DNA from: a virus
Virus record (IMG/VR): IMGVR_UViG_3300005578_000208
Span: 1-40,486 of that record
Direction: 5' to 3' (one strand)
DNA length: 40,486 nucleotides
The notes beneath the pieces are model-generated. The model was not told the origin of the DNA, searched no databases, and worked only from the letters and a program-made list of their open reading frames with translations. Every line of letters begins with the position of its first letter. Position 1 is the stretch's first letter. The position numbers and the translations under genes are program-made. Of this stretch, positions 1,278 to 40,004 are shown in pieces.

Positions 1278-1454
1278 CCGTGGCGCCGCCGATTTCTTCG
1301 ACAACCGGCAAACCGCCATGGCATCCGCACGGGGAAACATTGCGTGCATGAAATGAGCGAGCGGCAGATGACGCTGCGGAACTCAACACCGAGGTGCACG
1401 CTTGGACACCCTCTGGCTGTGGCCTTCGCCGGCGCACAAATGAGCTTCTGGAAT

Positions 1455-1505
1455 TGGTGCCCCCGATACGATTCGAACGTACGACCTTCCCCTTAGGAGG
1501 GGGAC
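1455..1505 (-). other. Attachment site: 3' fragment of tRNA-Arg(CCU) at the prophage end
   Basis: Read on the minus strand, this is the anticodon arm (loop CTCCTAA, anticodon CCT), variable region, T arm (loop TTCGAAT) and 3' acceptor strand ending ACCA of a tRNA-Arg(CCU). No D arm or matching 5' acceptor strand precedes it; the upstream sequence is the integrase 3' end. Such a 3' tRNA fragment is what remains at one prophage end when a tyrosine recombinase inserts into a tRNA gene. The CCA end points to the host side, so the intact tRNA should lie at the far right prophage end, beyond the window. Confidence 0.8.
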
Positions 1506-1525
1506 GACAGACACTAGAATTTAAG

Positions 1526-10093: not shown

Positions 10094-10112
10094 TCCTCCT
10101 TTGGAACAGGCT

Positions 10113-10433
10113 TCAGTCGGCAACGTTGCGGATGGCTTCGGGGGTGTATTCCCGCTGCTGGATGATTTCGTAGAAGCCCGGAGGCAGCTGGATGGTCGCG
10201 TGTTCCTCGTGCTTCACATCCGCACCGCTAGCGACATCGAGGAAGCGACGCACCGCGCTGTTGGCCTGTTCCATTGTGAATTCCTTGGCTTGCGGCTCGG
10301 CGATGGCGTGTGCATGGCCGGTGACTTCACCGTAAGCCAGTACGATCCGGCCGACGTTCTTCTTGATCTTGGCCTGCGAAGGAATTTCGTTGACCTGGCG
10401 AATCAGCACATCGCCCTGACGATACGTTTTCAT
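10113..10433 (-). CDS. Conserved partner of the DUF6745-like gene
   Basis: A 106-residue protein beginning MKTYRQGDVLIRQVNEIP. It has a VTGHAHAI motif, and the C-terminal half reads EEHATIQLPPGFYEIIQQREYTPEAI, ending VAD. The GHAH and EEH histidines and glutamates could form a metal site in a small beta-barrel. I recall this protein type being encoded beside DUF6745 genes in many phages and bacteria; the function is not known. Confidence 0.65.
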   Translation of the reverse strand: MKTYRQGDVLIRQVNEIPSQAKIKKNVGRIVLAYGEVTGHAHAIAEPQAKEFTMEQANSAVRRFLDVASGADVKHEEHATIQLPPGFYEIIQQREYTPEAIRNVAD

Positions 10434-21805: not shown

Positions 21806-22012
21806 ATGTCTCAGGGGAATGAAGTGCTTCGTGATGCTGCTATGGCGTCTCCGCTGGCAGCGTTCTTCGGGGCCAGTTGGATCGCCGACATTCCCTGGGG
21901 GCCAATCTCCTATCTGCTGGCAAGCATCTACACCTCGATGCTCATCGTCTAGCTTGGATACAAGGGCATCAAGTGGGTGAGGGCTAAGCGCCATGGCAAG
22001 CACCCGTCTTAA
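21806..22012 (+). CDS. Holin-like membrane protein with TAG after the membrane region
   Basis: A 68-residue protein. A hydrophobic stretch ASPLAAFFGASWIADIPWG and SYLLASIYTSMLIV (residues about 14-48) spans the membrane once or twice. TAG follows at codon 49 (21950-21952), then a cationic tail LGYKGIKWVRAKRHGKHPS to TAA. It lies directly before and overlaps the endolysin by 20 bp, as holins do. Termination at TAG gives a 48-residue form without the positive tail; readthrough gives the full form. Two forms with different lysis activity are therefore possible. Confidence 0.75.
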
Positions 22013-22469
22013 GGTCGGAGCCGGAGCCGCCAGTCTGGTTCTGAGCCTGGCCGCTGGTGTTGTCGTGCATTTCGAGGGCTATGTCCCCGAGACCTACGCC
22101 GATCCGGTTGGCATACCGACTATCTGCTACGGCCACACGGGAGACGATGTAAGGCCCGGCGAGAAGCTTGGCCTGTCGCAGTGCGAGCAACTACTGCGTG
22201 GCGACCTGGCGGCAGCCTATGGGGCCGTACAGCGTTGTATCCATGTTCCGCTCAAGCCTTATGAGGCTGCGGCGTTTACCTCCTTCACCTACAACGTAGG
22301 CGCTACCGCTTTCTGCCAGTCCACGCTGGCCCGCAAGGCCAACTCCGGTGATATGCCCGGTGCCTGTGCGGAGATGAGCCGTTGGGTCTATTCGGACGGC
22401 GAGAAACTTCCTGGTCTAGTACGACGTAGGGCCGCTGAGCGAGCCCTGTGCAAGGGTAAGCAGTCATGA
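21993..22469 (+). CDS. Endolysin, GH24 lysozyme with signal-anchor N terminus
   Basis: A 158-residue muramidase. The N terminus MASTRLKVGAGAASLVLSL plus AAGVVV is weakly hydrophobic and Gly/Ala-rich, as in signal-arrest-release endolysins. The catalytic triad has T4 lysozyme spacing: Glu28 (HFEGY), Asp37 (YADPVG), Thr43 (IPTICYGHTG). PYEAAAFTSFTYNVG and RRRAAERALCKG are typical GH24 blocks. It cleaves peptidoglycan at lysis. There is no in-frame TAG. Confidence 0.92.
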   Translation: MASTRLKVGAGAASLVLSLAAGVVVHFEGYVPETYADPVGIPTICYGHTGDDVRPGEKLGLSQCEQLLRGDLAAAYGAVQRCIHVPLKPYEAAAFTSFTYNVGATAFCQSTLARKANSGDMPGACAEMSRWVYSDGEKLPGLVRRRAAERALCKGKQS

Positions 22470-23062
22470 AATCCTTGGTACATCTCCTGGTCATCAGCTC
22501 CCTCCTGACCTTCGCGGGATGTGCCACTAAGCCGTTAGAGACCATGCGACACACCGCAGTCCATCTACATTTCAGTGATGGCGCATGCTCTGGGACGGTA
22601 GTAGGCAAGCGATCGATCCTCACCGCAGAACATTGCTTGGACGGATCGGATGTCATCTCGGTGGACGGGGTGGATGTCAAAGTCACTCAGGTGATGAAGG
22701 ACGGCAAAGATCACGTCCTGCTGCTGACCGACCATGTGTTCGCGCAGTCGGCCGATGTGTCCGATGAGCCTGAGCAGGGCGCCGCAGTCTATGTTCTCGG
22801 CAATCCCGGCGAACTGGAGAGCTTCTACCGCCAAGGCTATATCGCCGGTTACAAGGACATCCGAGGCCAGCACGTCACGCTGTACGACCTCAACGGGTTC
22901 TACGGCGACTCTGGTGCAGGTGTGTTCGATAGCGATGGCCGAGTGGTCGGCGTGATATCGGTCCTCTACCAGCAGGTAGACAACGGATACATGAAGTTCA
23001 TGGGCTCGTATGGGCTGGCCTTCACTGATAAGCAGTGGCGGGCCGCCCAATCTATTCAGTGA
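22466..23062 (+). CDS. Trypsin-like serine protease lipoprotein in the lysis cassette
   Basis: A 198-residue protein with a lipoprotein signal ending LLTFAGC (Cys19). The protease triad is visible: His56 in ILTAEHC, Asp82 in GKDHVLLLT, Ser149 in GFYGDSGAGVF, plus Cys pair 41/57. It should sit in the outer membrane facing the periplasm. It is placed between endolysin and spanins, with ATGA overlap with the endolysin. A role in cutting envelope proteins at lysis, or in processing in the lysogen, is inferred. No in-frame TAG. Confidence 0.8.
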   Translation: MKSLVHLLVISSLLTFAGCATKPLETMRHTAVHLHFSDGACSGTVVGKRSILTAEHCLDGSDVISVDGVDVKVTQVMKDGKDHVLLLTDHVFAQSADVSDEPEQGAAVYVLGNPGELESFYRQGYIAGYKDIRGQHVTLYDLNGFYGDSGAGVFDSDGRVVGVISVLYQQVDNGYMKFMGSYGLAFTDKQWRAAQSIQ

Positions 23063-23069
23063 GGTCGCT

Positions 23070-23144
23070 ATGAAGCTGATTCTGTTGGCAATCGTGGCGA
23101 TTTATCTATTCATCATCTGCAAGTACGGGAAGCCGTGCGAATGA
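23070..23144 (+). CDS. Tiny membrane peptide in the lysis cassette
   Basis: A 24-residue peptide, MKLILLAIVAIYLFIICKYG followed by a short polar end. It is one membrane helix. The TGA overlaps the ATG of the i-spanin (ATGA). It may be an antiholin or holin-like peptide. Confidence 0.5.
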   Translation: MKLILLAIVAIYLFIICKYGKPCE

Positions 23145-23401
23145 GCCGCATCAAGCTGATCGTGATCGCCGTACTGGCAGTCGTCCTTCTTCTAGGTGGC
23201 TGGCACTTCGCCCGCGTCCACGACGAAGCCAAGCAATCCAAGGTTGAAATCAAGACTCAGAAGCAGATCACCAAGCGCGCACAGGTCCGAAGCCATGTTG
23301 AGCAGGAAACCCAAAAGCTTCCCGATGCGCCTATCCAGCGGATTGGCGATGCTGCTCCTGATAGCGCTGCTGGCAAGCTGCAAGACTGGGCAAGAGATTA
23401 A
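23141..23401 (+). CDS. i-spanin (Rz-like)
   Basis: An 86-residue protein: N-terminal membrane helix IKLIVIAVLAVVLLLGGWHF, then a long charged helix EAKQSKVEIKTQKQITKRAQ reaching into the periplasm. The o-spanin gene is embedded in another frame near its 3' end. Together the pair fuses inner and outer membranes in the last lysis step. No TAG. Confidence 0.75.
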   Translation: MSRIKLIVIAVLAVVLLLGGWHFARVHDEAKQSKVEIKTQKQITKRAQVRSHVEQETQKLPDAPIQRIGDAAPDSAAGKLQDWARD

Positions 23402-23549
23402 GCCGAGCAACGGTTGCGAATGGGTAAAGCCCATCTTCCCAAGCCGGGACGACCAGCTTACAGACGGAACCGCCCGGCAGATCCTAGATCACGACGAAAC
23501 CGGCAGGCAGATTTGCGGCTGGTCTAAACCCACCAAGGAGAAGAAATGA
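23325..23549 (+). CDS. o-spanin (Rz1-like lipoprotein)
   Basis: A 74-residue lipoprotein: MRLSSGLAMLLLIALLASC, with the lipobox Cys at residue 19, then a polar periplasmic part with Cys pairs. The ATG at 23325 is preferred because it starts a proper signal peptide; 23295 is an alternative. It overlaps the i-spanin frame by 77 bp, as in the embedded Rz/Rz1 pair. No TAG. Confidence 0.75.
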   Translation: MRLSSGLAMLLLIALLASCKTGQEIKPSNGCEWVKPIFPSRDDQLTDGTARQILDHDETGRQICGWSKPTKEKK

Positions 23550-23716: not shown

Positions 23717-23811
23717 TGAGCAAGGGTAGCGATCGCAGGCCACCGGCTGTCGATGACAAGACGCTGGCTGACAATTGGTCGCGCATCTTTGGCAAGCATG
23801 ATGGGGCGTAG
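23716..23811 (+). CDS. Small conserved phage protein ending at TAG inside the tRNA gene
   Basis: A 31-residue product, MSKGSDRRPPAVDDKTLADN then WSRIFGKHDGA; this SKGSDRRP...W..IFG pattern is a widespread tiny phage protein. Its TAG (23809-23811) is formed by bases 8-10 of the suppressor tRNA. If TAG is read as Gln, translation continues 25 more codons through the whole tRNA gene to TAA at 23887-23889. Relatives are of the short size, so here TAG may still act as a stop. This is the only late gene where I prefer that reading. Confidence 0.6.
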   Translation: MSKGSDRRPPAVDDKTLADNWSRIFGKHDGA

Positions 23812-23876
23812 CATAACGGTAATGCCACGGACTCTAACTCCGCCCAATCTCCGTTCGAATCGGAGCGCCCCCGCCA
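23802..23876 (+). tRNA. Amber suppressor tRNA, anticodon CUA, probably tRNA-Gln
   Basis: A 75-base cloverleaf with encoded CCA. Acceptor 23802-23808/23866-23872 has six pairs and a U1-C72 mismatch. The D arm is GCAT/ATGC (23811-23814, 23822-23825) and the anticodon stem 23827-23831/23839-23843 with loop CTCTAAC holds anticodon CTA at 23834-23836. The T arm CTCCG/CGGAG has loop TTCGAAT, then discriminator G (23873) and CCA. G73, G2-C71, G3-C70, a weak 1-72 pair and U35 are the known identity elements for glutaminyl-tRNA synthetase. A CUA anticodon reads TAG. It lies inside the late operon between the lysis and packaging genes, overlapping the gene at 23716. Confidence 0.93.
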
Positions 23877-24157: not shown

Positions 24158-24403
24158 ATGTCTCGCGGAGGTAAGCGCGAAGGCGCGGGCCGTCCAAAGG
24201 GCAGCCTCGACAAGAACAACAAGTAGCTCAGGGAGATGATCCTAGAGGCGCTCGATCGAAAGGGCGGCGTTGACTATTTAGCCAAACAGGCGGAAGAGCA
24301 TCCTGGACCATTTATGAGCCTTCTAGCCAAGGTCCTACCCATGCAGGTAACTGGCGAGAACGGCGATCCGCTTAAGGCTAGCATCACGGTTACCTTTGAA
24401 TGA
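24158..24403 (+). CDS. terS: Terminase small subunit, one in-frame TAG
   Basis: An 81-residue protein: [20 protein letters not shown], a basic N terminus ([11 protein letters not shown] is typical of DUF5681-like small terminases), TAG at codon 23 (24224-24226), then [14 protein letters not shown] and [19 protein letters not shown]. It should recognise the packaging site and hand DNA to the large subunit. ATGA overlap with terL. The TAG lies just after the DNA-binding region, so termination would give a 22-residue fragment. Confidence 0.8.
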
Positions 24404-25653
24404 CGGACGCTAAGTTCCCGGCCAAGCTCAAGCCTCTGTTCCAGGCTTGCCGCTACAAGGTGGCTCATGGTGGGCGTGGGAGCGCCAAGTCGTGGAGTTT
24501 TGCCCGCGCATTGCTTATCCAGGCAGCGTCGAAGCCGCTGCGTATCCTGTGCACGCGAGAGGTCCAGAAATCCATCAAGGATTCGGTGCACAAGCTTCTT
24601 GGCGACCAGATCCAGGCATTAGGCCTTGGCATGTTCTACGAAGTGCAGTAGAGCGTCATCAAGGGCGCCAATGGTTCGGAGTTCATATTTTCGGGCCTGA
24701 GTGATCAAACGGCCGAGTCAATTAAGTCGTTTGAAGGCGTGGACATTGTTTGGGTGGAAGAAGCCTAGGCAGTGAGTGATCGCAGTTGGTCGATCCTGAT
24801 CCCCACCATTCGAAAGGATGGATCGGAGATTTGGGTCAGCTTCAACCCCGAACTTGACACTGATCCAACATGGGTGCGGTTTGTGGAGAATCCTCCACCC
24901 GGCGCCTGGGTGATCGATGTCAACTACCATGACAACCCATGGTTCCCTGAGGTCCTGGAGAAAGAGCGCAGACACGCCAAGGCGACGCTTCCAGAGTCAG
25001 ACTACCTGAACATCTGGGAGGGCAAGTGCAAGCCCGCCATAACGGGCGCTATCTACGCCGATGAGGTAGCCGCAACGCTTACCTCGGGGCGTATCTGCGA
25101 ACTCCCGTATGAGCCTTCCATGAAGGCTCATGCCGTCTTCGACCTGGGTTGGAACGACAAGATGTCAATCATCCTGGCGCAACGGCACATCAGCTAGCTC
25201 AGGGCTATCGAGTACATCGAGGACAGCCACAAAACGCTAGACCACTATTCGGCTGAGTTGAAGAAGAAGAATTGGAATTGGGGCACGATATGGCTCCCGC
25301 ACGATGGTCAGCACAAGGACTACAAGTCTGGCAAGTCGGCTGAACAGATCATGCGCGAACTAGGCTGGGACGTTCGGATCATTCCCAACCAGCCAATCGA
25401 GGCCGGCATACGCAATGCTCGCCGAGGGTTCGCCCAGACCTATTTCGACAAGGGAAAGACAGAACGTCTCGTGCAGTGCTTGAAGCGCTATCGCCGCAGC
25501 GTACCAACTACGACAGGTGAGCCTGGCGCCCCCATCCATGACGAGTGGAGTCATGGCGCAGACGCCTTTCGCTACCTTCACATCGTTGCCGAATCTCTGT
25601 CCAATGACAGCTGGGGCGGTAAACTCACCTACAAGAGCCTGGCAACCGCATGA
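24400..25653 (+). CDS. terL: Terminase large subunit, three in-frame TAGs
   Basis: 417 residues, the packaging ATPase/nuclease. Walker A is [12 protein letters not shown] (residues 23-34). Walker B is [10 protein letters not shown] followed directly by TAG (codon 123, 24766-24768); related terminases have EEAQ here. [17 protein letters not shown] is the coupling motif, and the nuclease acidic residues are in [10 protein letters not shown] and the late [12 protein letters not shown] block. Other TAGs are at codon 84 (24649-24651) and codon 266 (25195-25197). The frame is otherwise open with TGA at the end. Read in the standard code the gene would be broken into four pieces. Confidence 0.93.
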
Positions 25654-27827
25654 AACAGTCACCCATGACCGACTCGCAGCTGTGCGCTGTGATCGATTAT
25701 GAGCGCTCCTAGGGCATCGGTATCGATGATGAGCTGTCGTCCGATCGAGCCAAGGCGGACGCCTTCTACATCGGATACGCCACTGGCGTACTAGCCCCAC
25801 CGGACGTTGATGGTCGATCCAGGGTCGTCAGTAAACAGCTGATGGAGGTGGTCGAATGGGCTATGCCATCGCTGATGCGCATGTTCTGCGCCGATGACGA
25901 CGTTATCAGATTCGAGCCATCCTGCCAGGGAGACGAGCAGGTATGTAAGCAAGCGACGGACTATTGTGCCTACGTGCTGCATCGCAAGAATGACGGCTTC
26001 ACAGTACTACACGACGCCATCAAGTCGGCCCTGATTACTCGCTGTGGCTGGGTGAAAGTCTACTGTGAGCACACTTGGGATGTGCGCCAGAGCCATTATC
26101 AAGGACTGACAGATGTCGAGGTGCAGTCGCTTGAGGCTAATGAAAACCTGACGATCGATGAGATTGAGCAGGTACAGGAGGTTCAAGTACCCGTAGTAAA
26201 CGGTCAGCCGATGGGTGCTCAGCAGTAGCCGGCTACATTCAACGTACGCTGTTCGATTCGCAACAAGAAGACCAACTTCCGCGTGGTTGGTGTGCCGCCA
26301 GAGCAGATGTGGGCCAGCAAGGACAGCCGCAATCTCGATGAGCTGCGCTGTATAGGACAGGATACGCCGCGCACGGTATCTGAGCTTAAGAGCCTGGGCT
26401 ACGATCCGGAACTCGTGGATCAGATTCCTACGGGGACGGAGAACGACACCTACGGCGAACGCTACGAGCGCGAGAAGTACGACAACTCGTGGACCACGAA
26501 CAACTACGAGACGCAGGACGCCAGCCAGCGCACGGTGATCCTGTAGGAGGCATACCTGCGGGTAGACTATGACGGTGACGGCGTGGCCGAATATCGCCGC
26601 GTGGTGAAGTCTGGCCCCATTGTCTTCGAGAACGAGGTGGTAGACGACCACCCGTTCGCCTTCTTTACCCCTTTCCTGATGCCATACAAGCTGACTGGCA
26701 TCAGCCTTTACGATCTTGTCGAGGACTTGCAGCGAATACAGACGGCAATCAATCGCCAGTATCTGGACAACTTGTACCTCGCCAACACGCCCATGCGTGG
26801 CGTGGTTGAGGGCATGGTTACGCTGGACGATCTGCTCAATCCTCGCCCAGGCGGCATTGTCCGTATGAAGGGTACGCAGGTTATCCAAGACCTGACTGTG
26901 CCAGATATCGGGCCGTCTGCCATGGCCGGAATCCAGTACTTCCAGAGCGTCCGCGACAGCCGAACTGGCATCAAGGAGTTCTCGCAGGGCCTAGTGGGCG
27001 ATGAGCTATCCAAGTCGAATATCGGCTCCCAGGGTGTTGCGTTACTCCATGATGCTGCCGCTCAGCGCATTGAGCTGATTGCCAGGGTATTGGCCGAGAC
27101 TGGCATCAAGCGCATCTACAAGCTTCTTCTGAAGCTGATTTGCCAGTACCAGAGCGGTCCCGTGGAAGCTCGCATCTCCGGCCAGTGGGTGGAATTCGAC
27201 CCATCGACCTGGCAGGACGACTACGACATGGTTGTATCGGTCGGCATGGGCCAGGAAAGCAAGCAGGTGCGCATCCAGAACGCCATGATGATGCTGTCTG
27301 CCCAGCAGCAGGCCGGGCAATATGGCTTTGTCCAGCCGCAGAACGCGTTCAACGGCCTGGAAGATCTGGCCCAGGCCATGGGGAAGAAAGATCCTACGCG
27401 GTACTTCACGCCTCCGCAGAACATGCCTCCTCCGCAGCAACAGCCTTCCGAGGCTGAAAAGCAGATGCAGGTGGAGCAGTTCAAGGCGCAGTCTGCGGCT
27501 CAGCTCCAGGCCCAGAAGCATCAGCTTGACGCGCAGGGTGAAGTGCTTAAACAGCAGGCCCAGGCCGCCCAGCAGCAGCATGAGAAAGAGCTTGAGGCAC
27601 AGCGCAACATGCTCCAGATGCAGCAGGACGAACGCCTGGCGACTGTTAAGGCTCAGCTTGATGCCGAATTGGCTAGGTTTAAGGCCGAGCTACAGGCTCA
27701 GACGCAGATTGAGGTGGCCCGCATCAATGCTGAGGCCAAGATCGCCGCCGCCAAGACGATGGGTGCTAAGGATGCGTCTACTGCCGACGCCGACGTGGCC
27801 TATGAGCAACTAAACGAGACCAAGTGA
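25650..27827 (+). CDS. Portal protein (P22-like), three in-frame TAGs
   Basis: 725 residues with TAG read as sense, the same length as the P22 portal. TAGs are codon 21 (25710-25712), 193 (26226-26228) and 299 (26544-26546). Blocks include YIGYATGVLAPPDVDGRS, LVEDLQRIQTAINRQYLDN and SVRDSRTGIKEFSQGL, and the C-terminal quarter is a Gln-rich coiled coil. The portal forms the dodecameric DNA channel at one capsid vertex. It is coupled to terL by ATGA and to the next gene by TGATG. Confidence 0.9.
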
Positions 27828-28313: not shown

Positions 28314-29297
28314 ATGAGCAACCCGATCGATGGGACTCAGCCCGAAGGCGGCATGAGTGAAGAGGACATCCTGGCCCGACTGACGCCGCGCGAGGAAGAA
28401 GAGCAGAAGGAGGCCACGCCATCCGACGAATAGGCCGGGGGCGGTGAAGAAAACGGAGGCGACCATGGACAGGAAGCAGAGCATCAGGAAGAGGCCCATG
28501 ACGAACAACAGGATCAGACGCCCGAAGAACTGAAATGGCTTGCCAACAAGCACAAAATCACAGTTCAGGGACAGGAAATTGAAGTAAGCGCTGACGAGGC
28601 CTTCAAGGGCTATATGCGTCAGCAGGACTATACCCGCAAGACTCAGGAAGCAGCAGAGCAATCCCGAAAGGCGGATGAACTCTTTCAGCACGTACAGAAG
28701 GAATACGCATCGCGTATTAACCAACTGGACGTTCTGGGGTCTTCGTTGTATAGGGAACTGGTTGGCGACCAAGCTAAACTTGCGACTTTGATCGAAACTG
28801 ACCCGCAGGAATATCTGCGGCAGCAAGCAGCCATGCAAACCAAGGTGAGCATGCTGCAGCAGGTACAGCAGGCCTAGCAGGAGCACAGGGATCAGCAAGC
28901 CAACCAGGCGGAGCAGCATCGCCAGGAGCTTCTGGACCGCAGCGAAAAGGCTTTGCTCGAAGCACTTCCCACCTGGCGTGACGCCGATAAGCGCACTGCC
29001 GAGCAAAAGGAAGTAGCTCAGTTCCTTCTCAGTAACGGTTATTCAGCGGCTGACATCAACGGTCTTTATGACCATCGAGCCGTCCTTCTTGCCCGCAAGG
29101 CAATGCTTTGGGATAAGGCTCAGGCCGCACGTCAGAAGCAAGTCAATGCCCAGACAAGCCCGCCAAAGGCGGTGAAGCCTGGCGCATCCAACCCAACCAA
29201 CACTAAGCAGAACCAGACCCAGCAGGCATTCGCCAAATTCCGGAAGTCCGGACGAGATGATGATGCCGTGGCCTATCTGCTCTCTCGCTCTCAATGA
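28314..29297 (+). CDS. Scaffold-like protein, two in-frame TAGs
   Basis: 327 residues, acidic N terminus (MSEEDILARLTPREEEEQ, GGGEENGGDHGQEAEHQEEA) and long Gln-rich helices after residue 90, typical of capsid scaffolding proteins placed between portal and coat genes. TAGs are codon 40 (28431-28433) and codon 188 (28875-28877); the second lies in QQVQQA-TAG-QEHRDQQ, a glutamine-rich tract. It directs procapsid assembly and leaves before maturation, by family knowledge. Confidence 0.8.
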
Positions 29298-29307
29298 GGA
29301 TTGAATC

Positions 29308-30240
29308 ATGGCTGTGATCACCAATACTTTCACGACCTACGCCGCGATCGGCTAGCGTGAAGACCTGTCGGATGTCATCGACAACATTTCTCCGACCGAA
29401 ACCCCGTTTCAGTCGGCCCTGAAGAAGGTCAAGGCTGAGGCTCGCTTCCACGAGTGGCAGACCGACTCTCTGGCTGCCGCCGCTAACAACGCCCAGATCG
29501 AAGGCGATGACATCTCGTCCTTCCAGGCCGTCAGTCCGACCACGCGCTGGGGTAACTACACCCAGATCAGCTACAAGAACTTTGTCATTGCTGACACTGA
29601 GGAAGTGGTCAACAAGGCTGGCCGCAAGTCGGAAGTGGCCTATCAGAAGGTCAAGCGCATCAAAGAGCTGAAGCGCGATGCCGAGGTTGCCCTGATTCAG
29701 AACCAGACGTTCAACGCAGGTGCGCTGGGCACGGCTCGCCAGGCTCGCGGCTTGGCTGGCTGGATCACGCAGGGTTCGGTGGGTGCTACTGGCTCCTTCC
29801 CGGTGCCGTCCACCAACACCGCTCCTGTGGCCGGTACGGCCCGAGCCTTCTCGGAAGCGCTGGTGAAGGCTGCGATGCAAACCGCCTACACTGCTGGCGG
29901 TGCTCCCAACCTGATGCTCCTGCGTCCGTCGGATAAGTAGGTTCAGTCGACATTTACTGGCAACGCCACCCGTTTCGAGGATGCGGACAGCAACAAGCTG
30001 CACGCCGCGTTCTCGTTCTACCTGACGGACTTTGGCACCCTGAAGTGCGTGCCGGATCGCTTCATGGACGCTGCGGCGTACCTGATCGACCCGGAGCATG
30101 TTTCCCTTGCCACTCTGCGCCCGCTGGAATACAAGCCGCTGGCGAAGACGGGCGATGCGGAAAAGGCCCTGTTGACCTGGGAATACACGCTGCGCATGGA
30201 CAACAAGGATGCCCATGCCCAGATCCGCGACTTGTCGTAA
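29308..30240 (+). CDS. Major capsid protein (SU10/DUF5309-like), two in-frame TAGs
   Basis: 310 residues. The N-terminal block AIG-TAG-REDLSDVIDNISPTETPFQSAL is diagnostic for this HK97-fold group; TAG is codon 16 (29353-29355). Later blocks are RFHEWQTDSLA, KSEVAYQKVKRIKELKRDAEVALIQNQ and MLLRPSDK-TAG-VQSTFTG (codon 211, 29938-29940). It would be made in hundreds of copies per virion, so suppression at its two TAGs must be efficient. It ends TAA. Confidence 0.88.
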
Positions 30241-30296: not shown

Positions 30297-30608
30297 ATGG
30301 GCTATCAGTCCCCGATCTTCTCGGTGGATGTCAACGTTACCGGCGTCAACATTACGACCGGTGCGGCGTCGGCTTCTGCTTCCATTCCAAATAACTCCGC
30401 TGGCGTTGTGGCCCGCTATGTGCGAGTCACCGCCACTCAGTATGCCCATATCAAGGTAGGTAAAGGCTCGGCCACCGCCCTGGCTACCGACACGATGGTC
30501 ATTCCTGGCGAGGCACTCATCTTCTGCTGTTCTGGTGCCGACACCATCGCCGCTATTTAGGACACAACCGCCGGCATGGTGAACATTGTTCCTCTGGAGT
30601 GGGCATGA
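30297..30608 (+). CDS. Small capsid-region beta protein, one in-frame TAG
   Basis: 103 residues: MGYQSPIFSVDVNVTGVNIT, a beta-rich body YVRVTATQYAHIKVGKGSA, TAG at codon 88 (30558-30560) in GADTIAAI-TAG-DTTAGMVNIVPLEWA, then TGA. The 'A-G-M-V-N-I-V' end after the TAG is needed to complete the fold. It may be a decoration or head-completion protein; position only. Confidence 0.7.
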
Positions 30609-30883
30609 AAACAGCGCTTCACCTGCAGGGCGATGACCTGGTTGTCGCTTAGAGCCAGGACGTGGAACCTATTCTTGAGTTCTGCAAGGCGCAGCACAAT
30701 GCAGGCTTCTATGGATCATCGGAAATGCGCCATGTGGCAGAGGTGCCATATATCGTGATCGAGGCGTATTGCCAAAAGGCAGGCATCACGTTGCATGATT
30801 TCATGGACGACTAGACCCATATCCGCAGAGTGCTTGAAAATCCCGATAACTCCCTGTTCCGCATCTGGAAGGGCAAGCTCTAA
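30605..30883 (+). CDS. Head-region protein, two in-frame TAGs
   Basis: 92 residues: MKTALHLQGDDLVVA-TAG-SQDVEPILEFCK, then HVAEVPYIVIEAYCQKAGIT and FMDD-TAG-THIRRVLENPDNSLFRIWKG. TAGs are codon 16 (30650-30652) and 70 (30812-30814). Relatives are small phage head proteins with the 'HI.R.LNDPD....R.W.G' end. ATGA and TAATG overlaps link it to both neighbours. Confidence 0.7.
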
Positions 30884-31485
30884 TGATCAACGACTACGCC
30901 ACGCTCTAGGACGCGATCGCCCGATGGCTGGCGCGTACAGATCTATCTCTCTCCATTCCCGACTTCATTATGCTTGCGGAGACGCGGATCAATCGTGATC
31001 TTCGTGTGCGCTCGCAGCAAACCGTCGTAAGCGGAACGACATCGGGGCAGCAGATCACTCTGCCTAGCGATTACCGCTAGATGGAGGCGTTCATCGTCAC
31101 CATTGGTGGCATTGAGACCGAGCTGAAGCCGGTCCCGCCCAATCGAAGCACTAATGCAACCATTTCACCCACTCCCTCTGGATACTGGATTGGTGGAAAT
31201 GTTCTCCACCTGAACTGCAGCGCGGACTACGCCTATCGCATGGTCTACTTTGCCGGCGTTCCCAATCTGAGCGCATCGGCGACGCAGAACTGGCTTATTC
31301 AGCAAGACCCGAGCGTCTACCTATACGGCTCGCTGTTGGAGGCCTCTGCCTATATGCAGGATGACGACCGCATCCCTATTTGGAGGTCTGGCTATGAGAC
31401 CTGCATGGATGCCCTTAGGCGGCAGGATGACTATGCTAGATTCAGTCCCGCTCCGCGGCAGCGTGTTGATATCGTGGTGCCGTAA
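30883..31485 (+). CDS. Head-tail adaptor (gp4/SU10 adaptor-like), two in-frame TAGs
   Basis: 200 residues. MINDYATL-TAG-DAIARWLARTDLS (TAG codon 9, 30907-30909) and IPDFIMLAETRINRDLRVR are the typical adaptor start; relatives have Leu-Gln at the TAG site. LPSDYR-TAG-MEAFIV carries the second TAG (codon 66, 31078-31080). It binds below the portal ring and connects to the tail hub. Confidence 0.8.
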
Positions 31486-32942
31486 TGCGCATCGATTTGT
31501 AGGGCTTCTCTCCGGACCTTGACCCTGCTGTTCCAGGCGTCATCACCGACTGTGATCAGATCGTTCCCGCCATCCAAGGCTTCACGGCCGCCAATAGTCG
31601 GGTTGATGTCGGCCTATCTGCCCTGGATAGCGCATGCAAGGGCGCCTATGTCGGCACGCTTCTAGACGGCTCTAAGCGCATTGTTGCGGGCACCCAAGCC
31701 AAGCTATGGGATGTAACAGCAAGCACCTGGACGGATCGAAGTTAGGCAGGCGGATATACGGGCCTGAATCGCTGGCGGTTCACGATGTTCGGCAATAACG
31801 TGCTAGCAACCAACCGCGCGCAGCGTATCCAGCAGGCTGCCCCAAGCGCCAATTTCGCAGACATCGCCACCGCTCCAGCCGCCGCCGTCATGTGCTCGGC
31901 CTCTGGCTTCGTGCTAGTGGGCGATGTATCCGACCTTACAGGATCGTTTGGTGATCAGCCGGATGGTTGGTGGTGCTCTGGTCTGTTCAACCAGGCCGTT
32001 TGGACGCCAGCCGTATCCACCTAGTGCGCTAATGGTCGTCTAGTTACCGCTCCTGGCCGAATTACCGCCATGCGCGAGCTTGGCGACGATGTCGTGGCCT
32101 ACAAGGCAAAGTCGATGTTCCTGGGGCGATATGTCGGCCCACCCGTTGTGTGGAGTTGGCAGCGCATTCCTGGCGATATAGGGTGCTCAGGCCAGGAATC
32201 TGTAGTCGTCGTGGGTTCTTCCCATTTCTTCATCGGTCCTGCGGACATTTATGTCTATGACGGTACAGTGCCTCGGTCCATTGGCGCTCCTATTAGGCAA
32301 TGGTTCTTCCAGTCACTGAACGGATCGCAGCGAGCCAACATTATTGGCGCCGTCGATTTGGCCCGCGACCTTGTGTACTGGTACTACCCTTCCGTGGCGT
32401 CAACCACGGGCATCTGTGACAGCTGCATCGTCTACAACATCCGCACGAACCAGTGGGGAAGGGCATCGCAGAGCATCGAATCGGCTGTTGAGTATGCGTC
32501 TGGTGCCGTTACATACGATGGTCTAGGTACGCTGTATTCGACCTACGACAATCTGCCGAATATTGCCTATGACTCGCCGTTCTGGATCAGCGATCAGACG
32601 GTACCTGGCGTGATCGGCACTGATCATAAGCTCTACTCGCTGACCGGCAGCCCAGGGGCATCCTACCTGGTGTCCGGTGACTTCGGTGACGAGACCAACT
32701 GGAGCATGTTCCGACGCGCCACCCCTCGCTATCGAACGCAGCCTACGAGCGGCACGGGAACGAACTATTACCGCGGTAATTTGGGTGTGGCTCCTACCCA
32801 GGACCAGACCATCACGCAATCTAGCTAGGCAAGATTCGACTTCCGCCGGATTGCTCGCTGGCATCGCGTGCGGTTCGATTGGTCTGGTCCGGTATCTCTC
32901 AATGGCCTAGACGTGGATATCCAGTAGGCGAGCCGAGAATGA
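31485..32942 (+). CDS. gp10-like tail hub/packaged-DNA stabilisation protein, five in-frame TAGs
   Basis: 485 residues, close to P22 gp10 (472). MRIDL-TAG-GFSPDLDPAVPG starts it; RFTMFGNNVLATNRAQ, GFVLVGDVS, RYVGPPVVWSWQRIPGD and GSSHFFIGPADIYVYDG are beta-propeller-like strands. TAGs are codons 6, 87, 180, 448, 481 (31500-31502, 31743-31745, 32022-32024, 32826-32828, 32925-32927). The last is eight residues from the end region. It follows the adaptor as in P22. Confidence 0.82.
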
Positions 32943-33256: not shown

Positions 33257-33697
33257 ATGCTACCGATGCTCTCTGGCACGACGAACGACGGAAAAATGAA
33301 GTTTCAGGCCGTCCCCGTGTAGCTTGTTCGGCAGTTTTGGGCTGAAGTTCTGCCTGGTATTCAGCAGATCCGCGACACGAATGATGAGCCGTGGATGCCT
33401 GAAGACGTCTACGCTGCTCTGGCAGCCAATAAGGCAACGCTGTATGTCTTCCATGCAGATGATGGCCATCTAGCTGGCTTTATTGTCTGCGAGGTGGTTG
33501 TGATGCCATTTGCTGCGTCCGCTGACCTGAACATCTGGCTCGGTTGGTCCGATGCAAAGGGTCAAGGCCACTACGGGTTTGAGGTTGCAAAATATGTTTA
33601 GAGTGCGGCCGGCCTGAGCCGAACTTTATTTTGGACGCCGCAAGACGCATCTTGGGTCGGCAAGTTCCGACGCGTTACCAGTCTCTACGAGGTCTAA
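33257..33697 (+). CDS. GNAT-like internal virion/tail protein, two in-frame TAGs
   Basis: 146 residues. MKFQAVPV-TAG-LVRQFWAEVLPGI is followed by EPWMPEDVYAALAANKATLY and HADDGHLAGFIVCEVV, which has the look of a GNAT acetyltransferase core found among tail genes of podoviruses. TAGs are codon 22 (33320-33322) and 115 (33599-33601). The first ATG abuts the previous TGA; ATG 33296 is an alternative. The enzymatic role is unproven. Confidence 0.65.
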
Positions 33698-33699
33698 CC

Positions 33700-34755
33700 A
33701 TGGGTGGCAGCTCCTAGCCGAAGAACACCACGACCACCACTCAGGTATAGCTGCCTGCGTGGCTGTCGAGCGCCTATCAGAACTACTTCAACCAGACTCA
33801 GGGCGTTAACAACAAGCCGTATCAGCAGTATAGCGGCTAGACCGTCGCCGGCTTGACGCCAGAGCAGATGGGCGCCATCACCATGGCAGGTCAAGGTGCG
33901 GCGGGTCAGGGCACTAACCAGGCGGCCCAGGCCGCGCAGCTTCAGAACGTGCTCAATGGCGGCTACAGCGTCAATCCGTCCGCCAACCCTTATATGGGAC
34001 AAACAACCAACGTCGGCCAGAACCAATACGCCGGCCAGAATCCCTATCTAGGGCAGATGGTCAACCAGGCTCAGCAGAACATCGTAGACAGCTACAACAA
34101 GAACACGTCACCCGCCTTGGCTGCGCAGTTCGCTTCTAACGGAGCATTTGGTGGCAGCGCCTACAACGACGCCATGCAGCAGTCGCAGAACACCTTGGCT
34201 TAGAACCTCGGTCAGGTGTCGACGAGCCTCTACGGCCAGGACTACCAGAACCAGCAGCAGCTCGCCGAGAACGCACTTAATCGCAACGTGCAGGCTCAGC
34301 AGACGGATTTGGCGCGTAACGCGTCGTTGTATCAGCAAGGCATCGCTAATCAGCTCGGTGCGGCCCAGCAGAACGCAGGGTTGATCCTCAATGCATCATA
34401 GGGTGTGACGGGTGCCAATGCCCTTCAGAGCCAGTTCTTGGGCCAGTATGGCAACCTTGCTGCCGGTCAGCAGCAGGTCAATCAAGGGATGCTCGATCAG
34501 GCTGCGAACAACTGGTACAACCAGAACTACGGCTACGATCAGCAGCGTCTAGCGAACATGGGTCAGGCGCTAGGTACTGTACAGGGCGGCTTCCAGGGTT
34601 AGCAGACGACTGGCCTAAACCCCGCATATCAGCCTCGCAGCACTGGCGGTGCATTGGCTTCCGCTGCTGGCGGAGCAGCTACCGGCATGGCCGTTGGTGG
34701 GCCGTGGGGAGCGGCGATTGGCGGCGGTGTTGGTCTTCTTGGCTACTATCTCTGA
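33700..34755 (+). CDS. Glycine/glutamine-rich ejection protein (gp7-like), six in-frame TAGs
   Basis: 351 residues, low complexity and rich in Gln, Asn, Gly and Ala. Start MGGSS-TAG-PKNTTTTTQV-TAG-LPAWLSSAYQNY. Long helices (SYNKNTSPALAAQFASNGAF) and a glycine-rich hydrophobic tail GALASAAGGAATGMAVGGPW, suited to membrane insertion during DNA ejection. TAGs are codons 6, 17, 47, 168, 234, 301. Its place after the hub and before two larger ejection proteins parallels P22 gp7-gp20-gp16. Confidence 0.75.
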
Positions 34756-34764
34756 GGATGACCG

Positions 34765-35094
34765 ATGAATGGCTTTAACTTTCTGTCCGGCATGTAGAAC
34801 TATCCAGGTCTTCAGTATCAGCTCGGAACCTACGGCCAGCCTCAGCAATATCTCGGATAGGCGCCGATGATCTCAGATCCCTCTCAGTGGGCTAATAGTG
34901 GCTTCAACTTCGCCACCGGAGAGCAGGGTGGCATTCCGTCATATACGCAGAATCCCTTGAGCAATCAGGGCGCCAATGGATTTAGTCTTGGGGACCGCTT
35001 TAGGCGCTTTCAGGCAGCAAATGGCATGAGCAATCTCGGCCTTGGCTTGAGCGGACTAAATATGATGCTTGGCGGCTGGGGGAGTCACAGCTAA
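34765..35094 (+). CDS. Unknown virion-region protein, two in-frame TAGs
   Basis: 109 residues: MNGFNFLSGM-TAG-NYPGLQYQLG, then PQQYLG-TAG-APMISDPSQWANSG, ending in a Gly/Leu-rich region NLGLGLSGLNMMLGGWG. TAGs are codon 11 (34795-34797) and 32 (34858-34860). The TAATG junction leads into the next gene. Likely a small internal virion protein. Confidence 0.65.
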
Positions 35095-36485
35095 TGGCTT
35101 GGTATAGCGGTCTATTCGGTGACACCAGCGGGCTGAGCGATCAGGATCAGTAGAACATCGCCAATCAAGGGTTGCTGCGCGCTGGTCTTGGAATTCTGGC
35201 GGCCAATGGCCGACCAGGAACGACTCCATTCCAGGCCATTTCTAGCGGACTTCTAGGCGGCATGGATAGCGTCCAGCAGGGTGCATCCAATCTCCAAACT
35301 TCACGCTACAAGCAGGCACAGATGCAGTCTGCGATGGCAGATATGCAGCGCAAGCAGCAGATGCAGGCACTTGCGGCCAAGTTTGCCAAGCCAGACGGCA
35401 CGTTCGACATGCAGGGCTATCAGCAGGCGCTGAGTGGCATTGATCCTCAAGCATCGATCGATATGCAGCAGAACCTGCTTCATTCCAAGTTGTACGAGGC
35501 GCAGGCGAAGAAGGCACAAGCCGATGCCCGTGCAAAGGCTGTTCGTCAGATCAATTCGGGTAACAACGTCGTTACTCAGGAGCAGCAGGAAGACGGTTCC
35601 TGGAAGACTCTTGCCACGGCTCCGCGTTGGCAGCCGTAGTAGTCTGCCGGTTCGGCATTCGCCCAGCAAATCGACCTCATGCGCAAGTACGGCGCTACCG
35701 ATGACGACATTCGGGCGAAGCTCGGCATTCAGCCCTAGGGAGGCCAGCCGTAGAGCAATCTGAGCGGCCAGGACTACCTAAATAGCCTGCCAGATCAAGA
35801 GAAGAACATGGTTCAGGCTATCGTGGACGGCCGCTATCCGGTTCCCACCGGACGACAGGCCATGAGTCCTTAGTGGCAATCTGCTATCGCTGCTGCTCAG
35901 CAGGTTGATCCAACTCTTGACGCAGGCAGCTACAAGTCCCGAGCAGCCGCGCGGCAGAACTACACATCTGGCAAGGGATCGATGGAAATTAAGGCGCTCA
36001 ACACGCTGGCTGGGCATCTTCAGACGCTGTCGGACAGCCTCGACCAGATGGACAATTCGGATATTTCTCTCATCAATCGAGGTAGCAATTTAATAGGCAA
36101 GGAGTTTGGCGGTAAGCGAGGCCAGGCTTTGTCACAGTTCAATACATCAGCCAAGGCGGTGGGCGATGAGGCGGCCAAAGTTTTTGCTGGGGGCCAAAGT
36201 GCCCTGGGTGATCGTAAGGAAATCGGCGAATCGCTGAATCCCAACGCTCCTAACAGCAACCTGCGCGCAACCCTGAAGACCTACGCCGAACTCGTACAGA
36301 GCAGGTTGGCTGCGATCCAGGATCAGGCTAATCAGGCCATGGGTTACGGCTCACACTCCATTTAGGTTGTGACGCCGAAGGCAGCGAAGACGTTCCAGAA
36401 GTTTGCCGGCGGATCGTCTGGGGCGCCCTCAGCGCAGGTCAACCTTAACCAGCAAGACCCCCTCGGCCTTGGGATTGGACAGTGA
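35094..36485 (+). CDS. Ejection protein (gp20-like), seven in-frame TAGs
   Basis: 463 residues. MAWYSGLFGDTSGLSDQDQ-TAG-NIANQGLLRAG starts it, followed by Gln/Ala-rich helices (ADMQRKQQMQALAAKFA). Codons 182-183 are TAG TAG in tandem (35637-35642); further TAGs are 20, 215, 220, 260 and 424. The part PTGRQAMSP-TAG-WQSAIAAAQQVDP and SYKSRAAARQNYTSGKGSM resembles the central domain of phage internal virion proteins. It is probably injected with DNA. It ends TGA, overlapping the GTG of the next gene. Confidence 0.75.
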
Positions 36486-38542
36486 GCATTCTTGACGATA
36501 TCCGGTAGCAGTACCCGCAATACTCGGACGTTTCGGACGGCAAACTGGCGGCGGCTATCCGCAAGAAGTATTACGCCGATATGCCGCCGCAGGACTTCTA
36601 TCGTCAGGCCGGCTTGGGCCATCTAGTTGGCCTGGATGATGCTCCGGCGAATGGTCTTGGCACGGATGGGCAGAACTACGCAGCTGGTATGGGCAAGTCC
36701 GTGGTGGACAACTTGCGTGGCCTTCAGCAGGTCGGCACGGGTCTTGTCTCACACCTTCCCCTGGTGGGTGATCGCGCACAGGCCGCATACGACCGTCTGA
36801 AGCAGGAACAGTCCGACGCCAACGCCCAGGATGCGCCGCTGATGGGGACGAAAGCTGGCGTACTTGGCAACATTTCCGGTTAGGCGCTGCAAGCCATTGC
36901 TGGCGGTACAGCCCTTAAGGGCGCCGGCTTGGCAGGCTCGATTGTGCCTGGCGGATATACGGGCGCGGCTATCTCTGGTGGTCTCCAGGGCGCCATCCAA
37001 CCCCTTTCCGCCGACCAGAGCGAATGGAGCCGCTTGGGAAATGCCGCCATCGGTGCTGGGGCAGGCTTGGGTGGTCACGGCATCGTCAATGGCCTTGGCG
37101 CCACCTATCGCGGAGCCAAGGCTCTACTTGCCCCATTCTTCGATAAGGGGCAAGACCAGATCGTCGCCAATACGCTCACTCGATTCGGTGGTAATGCAGC
37201 CAAGAATGCGACTGCCAGTCAGATTCCTGGCGTGAATGCGAGCATGGCGGAACAGACGGGCGATGCAGGTCTAGCTCAGCTTCAGCGGGCAGTATTTGAG
37301 CGTGATCCTGCGCTCATGCAGCAGTTCACCGAGCAGCAGGCGAAGAATAATGCCTCTCGCTTGGGGCTTCTGTAGGGCGTGGCCGGAACTCAAGATCAGC
37401 TCGACAACGCCATCGCACGCCGGAGCGCGGCAGCCGATATGCGCTACCAATAGGCCTTCCAAGACAACGAGTCGCAGCAGATCGCCAGGCAGTGGAGCGC
37501 CGATCAGGCGAGGAAGCAGGCTTTAGACGCCGCACAACAGGCTTAGGCGCAGCAGTATGGCCTTCCGCTGTCTCCGCAGCAGAATGCGACGCTGCAATCG
37601 GCAATGGATCAGGCTGATAAGATCGTTCAGCCATCCGCTCGAATGCAGGAACTTGCTCAGCGACCAGCGATCTAGCAGGCCGTAAAGACCGCAAAGACCA
37701 TTGCAGAAAATCAGGGAATCGATCTGGGTGACCCGCTCACGTCGCTTCGTGGGCAGCACTACGTCAAGATGGCGCTTGATGATGCATTGAACACTGCGCA
37801 ACAGCAGGGCATCGGCAAGGTTGAACAGGGAGCTATTGCAAACACCAAGGCCGCATTTGTAGCGGAACTTGAGCGACAGAATCCCGCTTATCGTAATGCC
37901 CGACTGGCATTCCGCGACATGAGTCAGCCAGTTAATTAGCTTGAGCTTGGCCGCGGACTTCTATCGCGGGTTACTAGCCCACAGGCTGGTGAATTCGGCC
38001 AGATTGTCGACCAGCTGGGCAACCCTGTACTAACGCCCGACCGATTCGGTAATGCGGTGAAGCAACTTGATTCACTCGCATAGAAGGTGACGGGCCAGAA
38101 GTAGGCGAGTGCAGCCTCTATCCTGGCTCCGCAACAGAAGGACGCGGTTACGTCGCTCCTTGGTGACCTGTCGCGTCTGAAGGTGGCGAACAATACGGGT
38201 CGTTCAGTTGGATCTAATACCGTCCAGAACCTTGCAAGCCAGAATCTCTTGAGCGAGATAGGCAATGGCATAGGCCTACCATCGCTGGCTGACAGCGGTC
38301 TACTTGGCCGTCTTACTACGCCGGTCAGCAAGGTCTATGGGCTGTTCAATGTCCCTGACCAAATCAAAGAAAAGCTGGCTCAGGTCATGCTCAACCCGCA
38401 ATCGGCCGAGTCACAGGCAATCATTCGCCGCATGACGCCGGCCCAGCGATCAGCGTTTGCGCAGTACGCCGCTAGTGCTGGTGGTCTTATAGGCCAGTCT
38501 GCCGGTCTCGGTATCAGTCAAAAGCCGGCGCTTCAGCCCTGA
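36482..38542 (+). CDS. Large ejection protein (gp16-like), nine in-frame TAGs
   Basis: 686 residues from GTG 36482, the most TAG-rich gene: codons 9, 134, 298, 324, 355, 398, 486, 534, 541. MSILDDIR-TAG-QYPQYSDVSDGKLA is a typical internal-virion start with a 'Q-Y-P-x-Y-x-D-x-s-D' motif. Gly/Ala-rich segments follow (GYTGAAISGGLQGAIQPLS; GAGLGGHGIV), then Ala/Gln helices. Its order and size match P22 gp16. At any modest readthrough level full-length product would be rare, so suppression must be near complete in the late phase. Confidence 0.8.
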
Positions 38543-38668
38543 CTCCGGCATCCATTTGACTAAGGCCATAGCACCAAGACGAGCGGTACCTAACAGCACA
38601 ATGGCTATCACCGGCCCCACTACGAACCCAGCCGCAATCCTGAAAAAGGTCATCTGAGGATCAGACAT
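38450..38668 (-). CDS. Possible small membrane protein on the opposite strand
   Basis: 72 residues, MSDPQMTFFRIAAGFVVGPV followed by IAIVLLGTARLGAMALVKW and a basic tail. It fills the 124-bp gap between two late genes, overlapping the 3' end of the ejection gene by 93 bp and the first bases of the tail fibre gene. The clear membrane helix plus positive tail is unlike typical antisense noise, but the ribosome site is weak. It may be a holin-like or exclusion protein. It ends TGA. Confidence 0.4.
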   Translation of the reverse strand: MSDPQMTFFRIAAGFVVGPVIAIVLLGTARLGAMALVKWMPESGLKRRLLTDTETGRLAYKTTSTSGVLRKR

Positions 38669-40004
38669 GCCCGTACCTGTAAAAATGGCGGATTTGTTCA
38701 CTATCGCCGCCTCCAATAGCCCGGCTGGCTCCGATCCCATCGGCAACAGCCTGGACGACTACCTGAGGGCGGTGTAGGCCATTATACGCTCTACGAATGC
38801 CCTGGCTTCGGCGACCCTGGCGGCCGGTTCTACGACCGATCTAGGATCTGCGGACGCGGAGTCCGTCCAGATCACCGGAACGGCCAGTATCTCGTCCTTT
38901 GGCACAACCGCAGCGGGTATTGTCCGCGAGTGCCGATTCGCTGGCGCCTGCACCATCGTGAATTCCAGCGCTATCGCCATTCCTGGTGCGGTCAACATCA
39001 CGACCGCGGCCGGCGATGTGATTCGCTTCCGCTCCCTCGGCTCTGGCAACTGGATCTATGTCTGCGGTACCCAGCAGCCTGGCTATTTGCCGGTGGCCGG
39101 TGGAACCATGACCGGTTCAGTAACCTTTGCTCCGACCGCAGCCTTGGGCAATACAGCCGGCAACTTCTACGTGCCAACCCTGTTCCAGTAGGCCACGTCG
39201 AATAACGATCAGCTCGTTACTCAGCATACCCGCGTCTCTAACGGATCGGATTGGACAACGGCCATCATGAGCATCTACCGAAAGGTAGACTCGTCGCAGC
39301 ATGGTTTTGTGTAGTTCGGTGAGGCCACTTCGGGCACTGGCCTTGCGTTCGGGTCCGGATCGTCTACCTATGCGACCATGTCAGGCGCTGGTGCATGGTC
39401 CTTCTCTAGCCGGCCGACGTTCAACGGTAACGCCGCCTGGGACGCTGGCAACTTCAATCCTGCCAACTATGCCGCTCTGGCTGGCGCGATCTTCTCGGGT
39501 CTCATTACAGCCAACGGCAATATGCAGGTGAACAGCCTGTTCAACCAGAGTATCGGCACCGTTGGTACGCAAACCAATCTATCCAACTTCGGCTGGGGAA
39601 ACGGTGTGCCGCGTTGGAAGCAGTGGCTGGAAACCAACGCCGACTTCTCGTTCTACTCCTACGATTCGGCAGGCTCGACGCCGCGCAAGACGCTTAGCAT
39701 CGTGAACACGACGGGCGTATGTACGGCACCGGACTTCCAGTCGCTATCGGATGTCAGCCTGAAGTCCAATATCAAGCCGCTTGATCGTGGTCTCCAGGCA
39801 CTCCTTAAGTTAGCCCCGTGCTCTTATGAGAAGGATGGCAGGAGTGAAATCGGCTTCATCGCCCAGGATGTGGCGGAAGTGGTGCCGGAGGCTGTGGCGA
39901 GACGCTCTGACGGCCTCATGACCCTATCCCATGGTCAGCTGACGGCCCTCATCACCAACGCGCTGAAGGAGCTTGCTGGGCGCGTTTCGGCGCTTGAGGC
40001 ATAA
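38667..40004 (+). CDS. Tail fibre/spike with S74 chaperone domain, three in-frame TAGs
   Basis: 445 residues. N-terminal KMADLFTIAASNSPAGSDPI and SLDDYLRAV-TAG-AIIRST is the usual virion-binding start of podoviral fibres. A Gly/Ala/Ser-rich beta region follows, then the intramolecular chaperone: SLSDVSLKSNIKPLDRGL (Ser361-Lys366 dyad), EIGFIAQDVAEVVPEAV, LTALITNALKELAGRV. That domain trimerises the fibre and cleaves itself off. TAGs are codons 37, 175, 216 (38775, 39189, 39312); none is in the S74 domain. It ends TAA. Confidence 0.88.

Follow-up and report, generated by a model that had tools for sequence, protein, structure and literature searches.

The whole stretch of DNA analyzed here (the window, 40,486 nucleotides) appears to belong to a P22-like phage of Rhodanobacteraceae that reads UAG as glutamine by means of one phage tRNA and uses UAG codons near gene starts as a translational gate on its virion genes; we put the probability of this reading at roughly three in four. 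Phage UAG-to-glutamine recoding with suppressor tRNAs, including a proposed role in timing, is already known, while its presence in soil gammaproteobacterial prophages of about 40 kb, the start-proximal locks and the repeated replacement of the tRNA seem to be new. An earlier note on this DNA, made from the sequence alone, had described the tRNA; we think that the start-proximal TAG pattern, absent from that note, is the more important observation.

Gene order, flank and attachment site identify the window as an integrated temperate P22-like prophage. The left flank is Rhodanobacteraceae DNA; bases 1–412 match a genome of the Dyella family at 97% identity and code for the beginning of an aldehyde dehydrogenase. 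A prophage of Dyella sp. SG609 (on NZ_JAAZQJ010000005.1) is among the relatives of the window, and the attachment site at its right end is identical to that of the window:

1454..1506, no strand assigned: attachment site, the 3’ part of tRNA-Arg(CCU), adjoining the integrase (1526–2554)

The left part encodes the integrase, an AlpA-like regulator, Erf, a CI-like repressor, replication protein O, DnaB, NinB and RusA; then come endolysin, protease, Rz-like spanin, the tRNA, terminase, portal, scaffold and major head protein, and finally structural and ejection proteins and the tail fibre. An early gene of the left arm (8828–10123) has a DUF6745 domain (192 bits), and a trypsin-like peptidase gene (22466–23062) lies between endolysin and Rz in the lysis cassette. 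A megablast search of the window against GenBank phages gave no match, and no close relative was present among 50,697 GenBank phage records, the best TerL being 53.6% identical.

ARAGORN detected one tRNA gene in the window, with the anticodon CUA, and the comparison of the window with all Rfam families by Infernal gave 47.1 bits (E 4e-7) for RF00005, the gathering cut-off of which is 29:

23802..23876, + strand: amber-suppressor tRNA gene (CUA) with encoded CCA; U1.C72, G2-C71, G3-C70, G73

The earlier note had placed a single CUA tRNA with encoded CCA at exactly these positions and had named ARAGORN as a way of checking it; both programs agree with it. Direct reading yields the U1.C72 mismatch, G2-C71, G3-C70, G73, U35, the encoded CCA and the anticodon loop CUCUAAC, which bears out the determinants listed in that note (G73, G2-C71, G3-C70, an unpaired 1-72 and U35). 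G10-C25, also a glutamine element, is present, and position 36 is A36 rather than G36, which holds for every amber tRNA. In its anticodon arm (ACGGA-CUCUAAC-UCCG) the phage tRNA nearly equals the Dyella tRNA-Gln(CUG), which is also its best match among the Dyella tRNAs compared (69% overall). The Rfam comparison of the window revealed no HDV-like or theta ribozyme by the tRNA. The claims that the window holds no second tRNA and no synthetase or release factor gene likewise stand: the only other tRNA signal is a sub-threshold fragment at 1458–1514 (24.7 bits), the attachment-site remnant of tRNA-Arg(CCU), and no such gene was found among about 50 window ORFs scanned against PHROGs and/or Pfam.

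When TAG is read as sense, 50 in-frame TAGs fall within the 17 ORFs that follow the tRNA, with at least one in each of 15 ORFs, which agrees with the previous description of the tRNA as the missing reader for the TAG codons. Otherwise terminase, portal and capsid are all broken; read through TAG, they match PHROG families over most of their length. The lysis cassette and the genes with TAG codons are the following:

21993..23549, + strand: lysis cassette (endolysin, trypsin-like protease, Rz-like spanin), upstream of the tRNA, called without internal TAG
24158..24403, + strand: gene in the terS position (PHROG family of unknown function; adjoins terL), TAG codon 23
24400..25653, + strand: terminase large subunit, TAG codons 84, 123, 266
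25650..27827, + strand: portal protein, TAG codons 21, 193, 299
28314..29297, + strand: head scaffolding protein, TAG codons 40, 188
29308..30240, + strand: major head protein, TAG codons 16, 211, the TAG at codon 16 being common to many relatives
30297..30608, + strand: virion-region gene, TAG codon 88
30599..30883, + strand: virion-region gene, TAG codons 18, 72
30883..31485, + strand: virion structural protein, TAG codons 9, 66
31485..32942, + strand: virion structural protein, TAG codons 6, 87, 180, 448, 481
33257..33697, + strand: late gene, TAG codons 22, 115
33700..34755, + strand: DNA-ejection protein, TAG codons 6, 17, 47, 168, 234, 301
34765..35094, + strand: late gene, TAG codons 11, 32
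35094..36485, + strand: late gene, TAG codons 20, 182, 183, 215, 220, 260, 424
36482..38542, + strand: large late protein, TAG codons 9, 134, 298, 324, 355, 398, 486, 534, 541
38667..40004, + strand: tail fibre, TAG codons 37, 175, 216

Within the window, the lack of internal TAGs in upstream ORFs and of terminal TAGs in downstream ORFs is largely a product of ORF calling, and weight was therefore placed on tightly joined genes (for example, at 24400/24403 and 25650/25653) and on relatives translated with TAG as sense. The early genes of the relatives (DnaB, ninB, rusA, phosphoesterase), read in the same manner, have zero TAGs, with the exception of one TAG in the homologue of gene 20480 in locus L018; recoding is thus found in late rather than early genes. 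Lysis genes of several relatives do contain TAG, making the picture mixed. The base following TAG (G in 22 cases, C in 12, A in 11, T in 5) shows no clear difference from that following CAG or CAA, and a search for a late promoter with the sigma-70 consensus remained at chance level.

TerL and capsid searches yielded about 200 related loci, and 219 loci were compared. In-frame TAGs are confined to the group around the window. All loci that both span the tRNA site and have in-frame TAGs carry a CUA tRNA between the lysis genes and terS (that of L285 was spotted by eye), and no CUA tRNA was seen in loci of this set without TAGs, bar two short fragments of a low-TAG lineage. More distant relatives (from Pseudomonas, Undibacterium, Vogesella, Cupriavidus and others) have neither TAGs nor a CUA tRNA. 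Six standard-code sisters (L014, L015, L212, L213, L214 and L219) have capsids that are 75–80% identical, and no CUA tRNA was seen in them. On the capsid tree, recoding does not form a single clade: seven changes are needed, at least four of them forced by well-supported branches. A further genome of the Dyella family holds a second TAG-recoded P22-like prophage, L285 (G128:C2:230000-249000), which is divergent and has a 71-nt CUA tRNA of its own.

The body of the suppressor tRNA has been replaced repeatedly among the relatives, and early TAGs persist. In relatives, this locus yielded 21 distinct CUA tRNAs, which range from 71 to 106 nt and either resemble tRNAs for Gln, Glu, Pro, Met, Trp or Ser or have a much reduced D arm; a non-pairing 1-72, G2-C71 and G73 occur in all 21 and G3-C70 in 20 of them. 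Most were found by ARAGORN and a few by a pattern that required G2, G3 and GCCA and not the 1-72 mismatch. For L007, L011 and L026, which have short-D-arm or long-variable-arm forms, a lower ARAGORN threshold gave noise, and the tRNAs were found by sequence reading, the pattern and Infernal. Short-D-arm CUA tRNAs of 71–72 nt (L011, 9014–9084; L007, 2488–2558; L022, 9570–9640; L233, 2934; L285, reverse strand) were in several cases missed by ARAGORN, and one of them sits in the prophage of Dyella sp. SG609. The tRNA of L026 (999–1104, 106 nt) is Ser-like and of class II, its variable arm being very long, and it has A1.C72 and G3-C70. L229 and L236 have nearly identical capsids and different CUA tRNA bodies. 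In a Dyella prophage (L011, approximately 9085–9480) an apparent HNH-type endonuclease ORF, noticed by eye, lies directly downstream of the suppressor tRNA, and in some recoded relatives (L009, L021, L027, L029, L233) ordinary tRNAs (Pro, Ser, Thr, Asn) stand beside the CUA tRNA.

The phage tRNA almost certainly inserts glutamine at UAG, and two independent lines hold in pointing to it, the TAG columns and the acceptor elements kept on differing bodies, in agreement with the glutamine identity given in the earlier note. For the former, emission profiles from standard-code homologues were summed at the TAG positions of recoded relatives: the 223 TAG columns gave 154.8 bits for Gln, 78.2 for Glu, 64.0 for Lys and less for others. 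At TerL codon 123, 52 of 56 aligned standard-code homologues have Gln. As to the acceptor elements, a review of tRNA identity assigns glutamine identity to 1-72, 3-70, 10-25, U35 and the discriminator base (PMC9976931), and it also describes an E. coli amber tRNA-Trp charged with Gln and an amber tRNA-Ser that became a Gln tRNA on changing pairs 1-72 and 3-70. Just two tRNAs of Dyella sp. SG609, both tRNA-Gln, combine a weak 1-72 with G2-C71, G3-C70 and G73; one Dyella host tRNA, a tRNA-Met, was parsed as mismatched at 1-72 (two odd low-scoring matches on one contig were left aside).

Insertion of another amino acid (for example, Glu, Lys, Trp or Pyl) is very unlikely. Glu and Lys do rank second and third in the column test, and the tRNA bodies of some relatives resemble Ser, Glu or Pro tRNAs, but Gln is ahead by 77 bits, the acceptor determinants are those of Gln, and the amber tRNA-Ser mentioned above turned into a Gln tRNA through 1-72 and 3-70 (PMC9976931). 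ARAGORN labels the gene 'tRNA-Pyl' because of the CUA anticodon only; tRNA-Pyl was rejected, since PylRS (PylS) had no match above the cut-off in three genomes of the host family, the Dyella host of a close relative included, and none in the window. The most likely charging enzyme is the host GlnRS, because the tRNA carries Gln identity elements and the genome of Dyella sp. SG609, the host of a relative, carries a GlnRS gene.

The TAGs are concentrated near gene starts. In the window, a TAG falls among the first 50 codons of 13 genes, compared with 5.4 expected when TAG is redistributed over all late Gln codons, and none of 4000 shuffles reached 13. When TAG was shuffled among Gln codons within genes, about one in 10,000 shuffles gave first TAGs as early. 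Most relatives show the same bias (L223, 13 vs. 5.4 expected; L218, 9 vs. 2.5; L224, 9 vs. 2.1; L233, 8 vs. 1.2; L229, 6 vs. 0.9). It is weak or marginal in L215 and L007 and is not significant in L208, the nearest well-covered relative (9 vs. 6.9, p 0.17); the genomes being related, per-genome p values are not independent. Low-density lineages have one TAG per affected virion gene, at codons 3–52: L229 has them at codons 41, 16, 24, 42, 6 and 20 of six virion genes, and L226 at codons 3, 40, 16, 52 and 9 of five.

Start-proximal stops would also arise if start codons had been mis-called, with the TAGs lying upstream of the true starts. This is extremely improbable, and we rejected it: the coding sequence ahead of the early TAG is conserved in standard-code sisters for the capsid gene (MCP; AIG[Q/TAG]REDLSD), the fibre gene and a head gene. 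Codon 16 of MCP is TAG in most of the group and CAG, ATG or CTG in the standard-code sisters, and this TAG is retained alongside differing tRNA bodies. Elsewhere the early TAG codon differs among lineages within a family (11, 20 or 37 in the fibre gene; 9, 14 or 24 in the head gene). As sites differ by lineage and tRNA bodies are swapped, what endures is that an early UAG is there, while its exact codon and the tRNA decoding it are exchanged. The conservation of the exact first-TAG sites of the window relative to later TAG sites is mixed, and the early TAG columns, compared for avoidance of Gln positions, were all variable.

The pattern could alternatively reflect plain drift, a suppressor tRNA having been gained for some other reason, UAG tolerated as a Gln codon in genes that are expressed only in the presence of the tRNA, and TAGs accumulated with no regulatory purpose. 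Many TAGs do sit far inside genes, which drift would produce as well and which counts against a gate; in addition, TAG sites turn over fast between close relatives, and TAG columns resemble ordinary Gln columns. Yet the early excess is seen for TAG and not for CAA (5 genes in the window vs. 5.4 expected), TAG-hit genes are more evenly spread than by chance in several genomes (14 of 16 in L218, 10 of 10 in L232), and drift does not easily account for lineages in which each affected virion gene has a single early UAG and other UAGs are nearly absent. We consider this explanation unlikely.

A translational gate is a fairly probable explanation. Since nearly all virion genes next to the tRNA hold a UAG near the start, they probably cannot be produced until the virus makes its own tRNA. 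The tRNA, at the head of the virion operon, would be transcribed with the late genes, processed and charged with Gln by host GlnRS, which would recognize the open 1-72, G2-C71, G3-C70, G73 and U35. The charged tRNA would then compete at UAG with host RF1, which is encoded in the genome of the standard-code host Dyella sp. SG609. With a UAG among the first 50 or so codons of most virion genes, translation of late mRNA would end in short, useless peptides as long as the tRNA is scarce. Output would be the product of mRNA and read-through efficiency, i.e. a multiplicative, coherent feed-forward gate, which may silence leaky late transcription in the lysogen and delay virion proteins after induction. 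Since the tRNA shares an operon with the genes that it would gate, the block would not be absolute, and output would only be steeper and later. The lysis genes of the window are not gated, which counts against the gate.

A third explanation is that the UAGs act as a private key, barring co-resident or satellite elements and recombining phages that lack the tRNA from using the virion genes, with no role in timing. On this view every virion gene should have at least one TAG and early, null-making sites should be preferred, and it is consistent with TAGs persisting while the tRNA body is often swapped. Standard-code sister phages stand close by in the capsid tree, which speaks against it; the data do not separate it cleanly from the gate, and we regard it as rather improbable. 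Going beyond the gate itself, we lean slightly towards a view of the start-proximal ambers (one per gene in some lineages) as dedicated locks and of a swappable Gln-suppressor tRNA as the key, with selection acting on the presence of an early UAG and not on its site or amino acid, and with tRNA bodies converging on GlnRS recognition by opening 1-72.

The idea of stop codon recoding as timing has so far come mainly from uncultured gut phages. Here a relative is integrated in a named Dyella strain, so that tRNA deletion and TAG-to-CAG swaps are feasible. Standard-code sister phages provide natural controls for the gain or loss of recoding, and the 21 suppressor tRNAs on differing bodies offer a natural experiment in GlnRS recognition. 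Wherever phages of this group are annotated with the standard code, their virion genes will be split into fragments.

TAG-to-Gln recoding (code 15) in gut phages, with a proposed role in late-protein timing, is attributed to Borges 2022 through PMC11165621, PMC13059738 and PMC9523058; UAG-to-Gln recoding in crAss-like phages was shown by proteomics (Peters 2022, PMC9523058). The code 15 gut phages (crAss-like, Lak megaphages and others) and the window have in common a phage suppressor tRNA, UAG read as Gln, recoding concentrated in structural genes and a standard-code host. In contrast to them, the window group consists of temperate P22-like phages of about 40 kb from gammaproteobacteria (Rhodanobacteraceae), and it is set apart by start-proximal TAGs, lineages with one TAG per affected gene and swapped tRNA bodies that keep the Gln acceptor features. 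In recoded gut phages, a suppressor tRNA associated with a theta ribozyme has been proposed to activate lysis and structural genes that are recoded (PMC10879173), and the idea of a concentration threshold in that system resembles the gate proposed here, whereas the window has no HDV-like ribozyme according to Rfam and its tRNA has an encoded CCA. E. coli amber suppressors (PMC9976931) and the window group alike obtain Gln identity on foreign bodies from U35, an open or weak 1-72, G3-C70 and G73, and the tRNA of L026 is a natural counterpart of the E. coli amber tRNA-Ser made into a Gln tRNA; the former are laboratory mutants, whereas the latter are natural phage genes with many bodies. Finally, P22/lambda-type phages share the order int, xis, erf, CI, O, DnaB, nin, lysis, terS/L, portal, scaffold, capsid and fibre with the window, the virion genes of which, unlike theirs, carry UAG codons.
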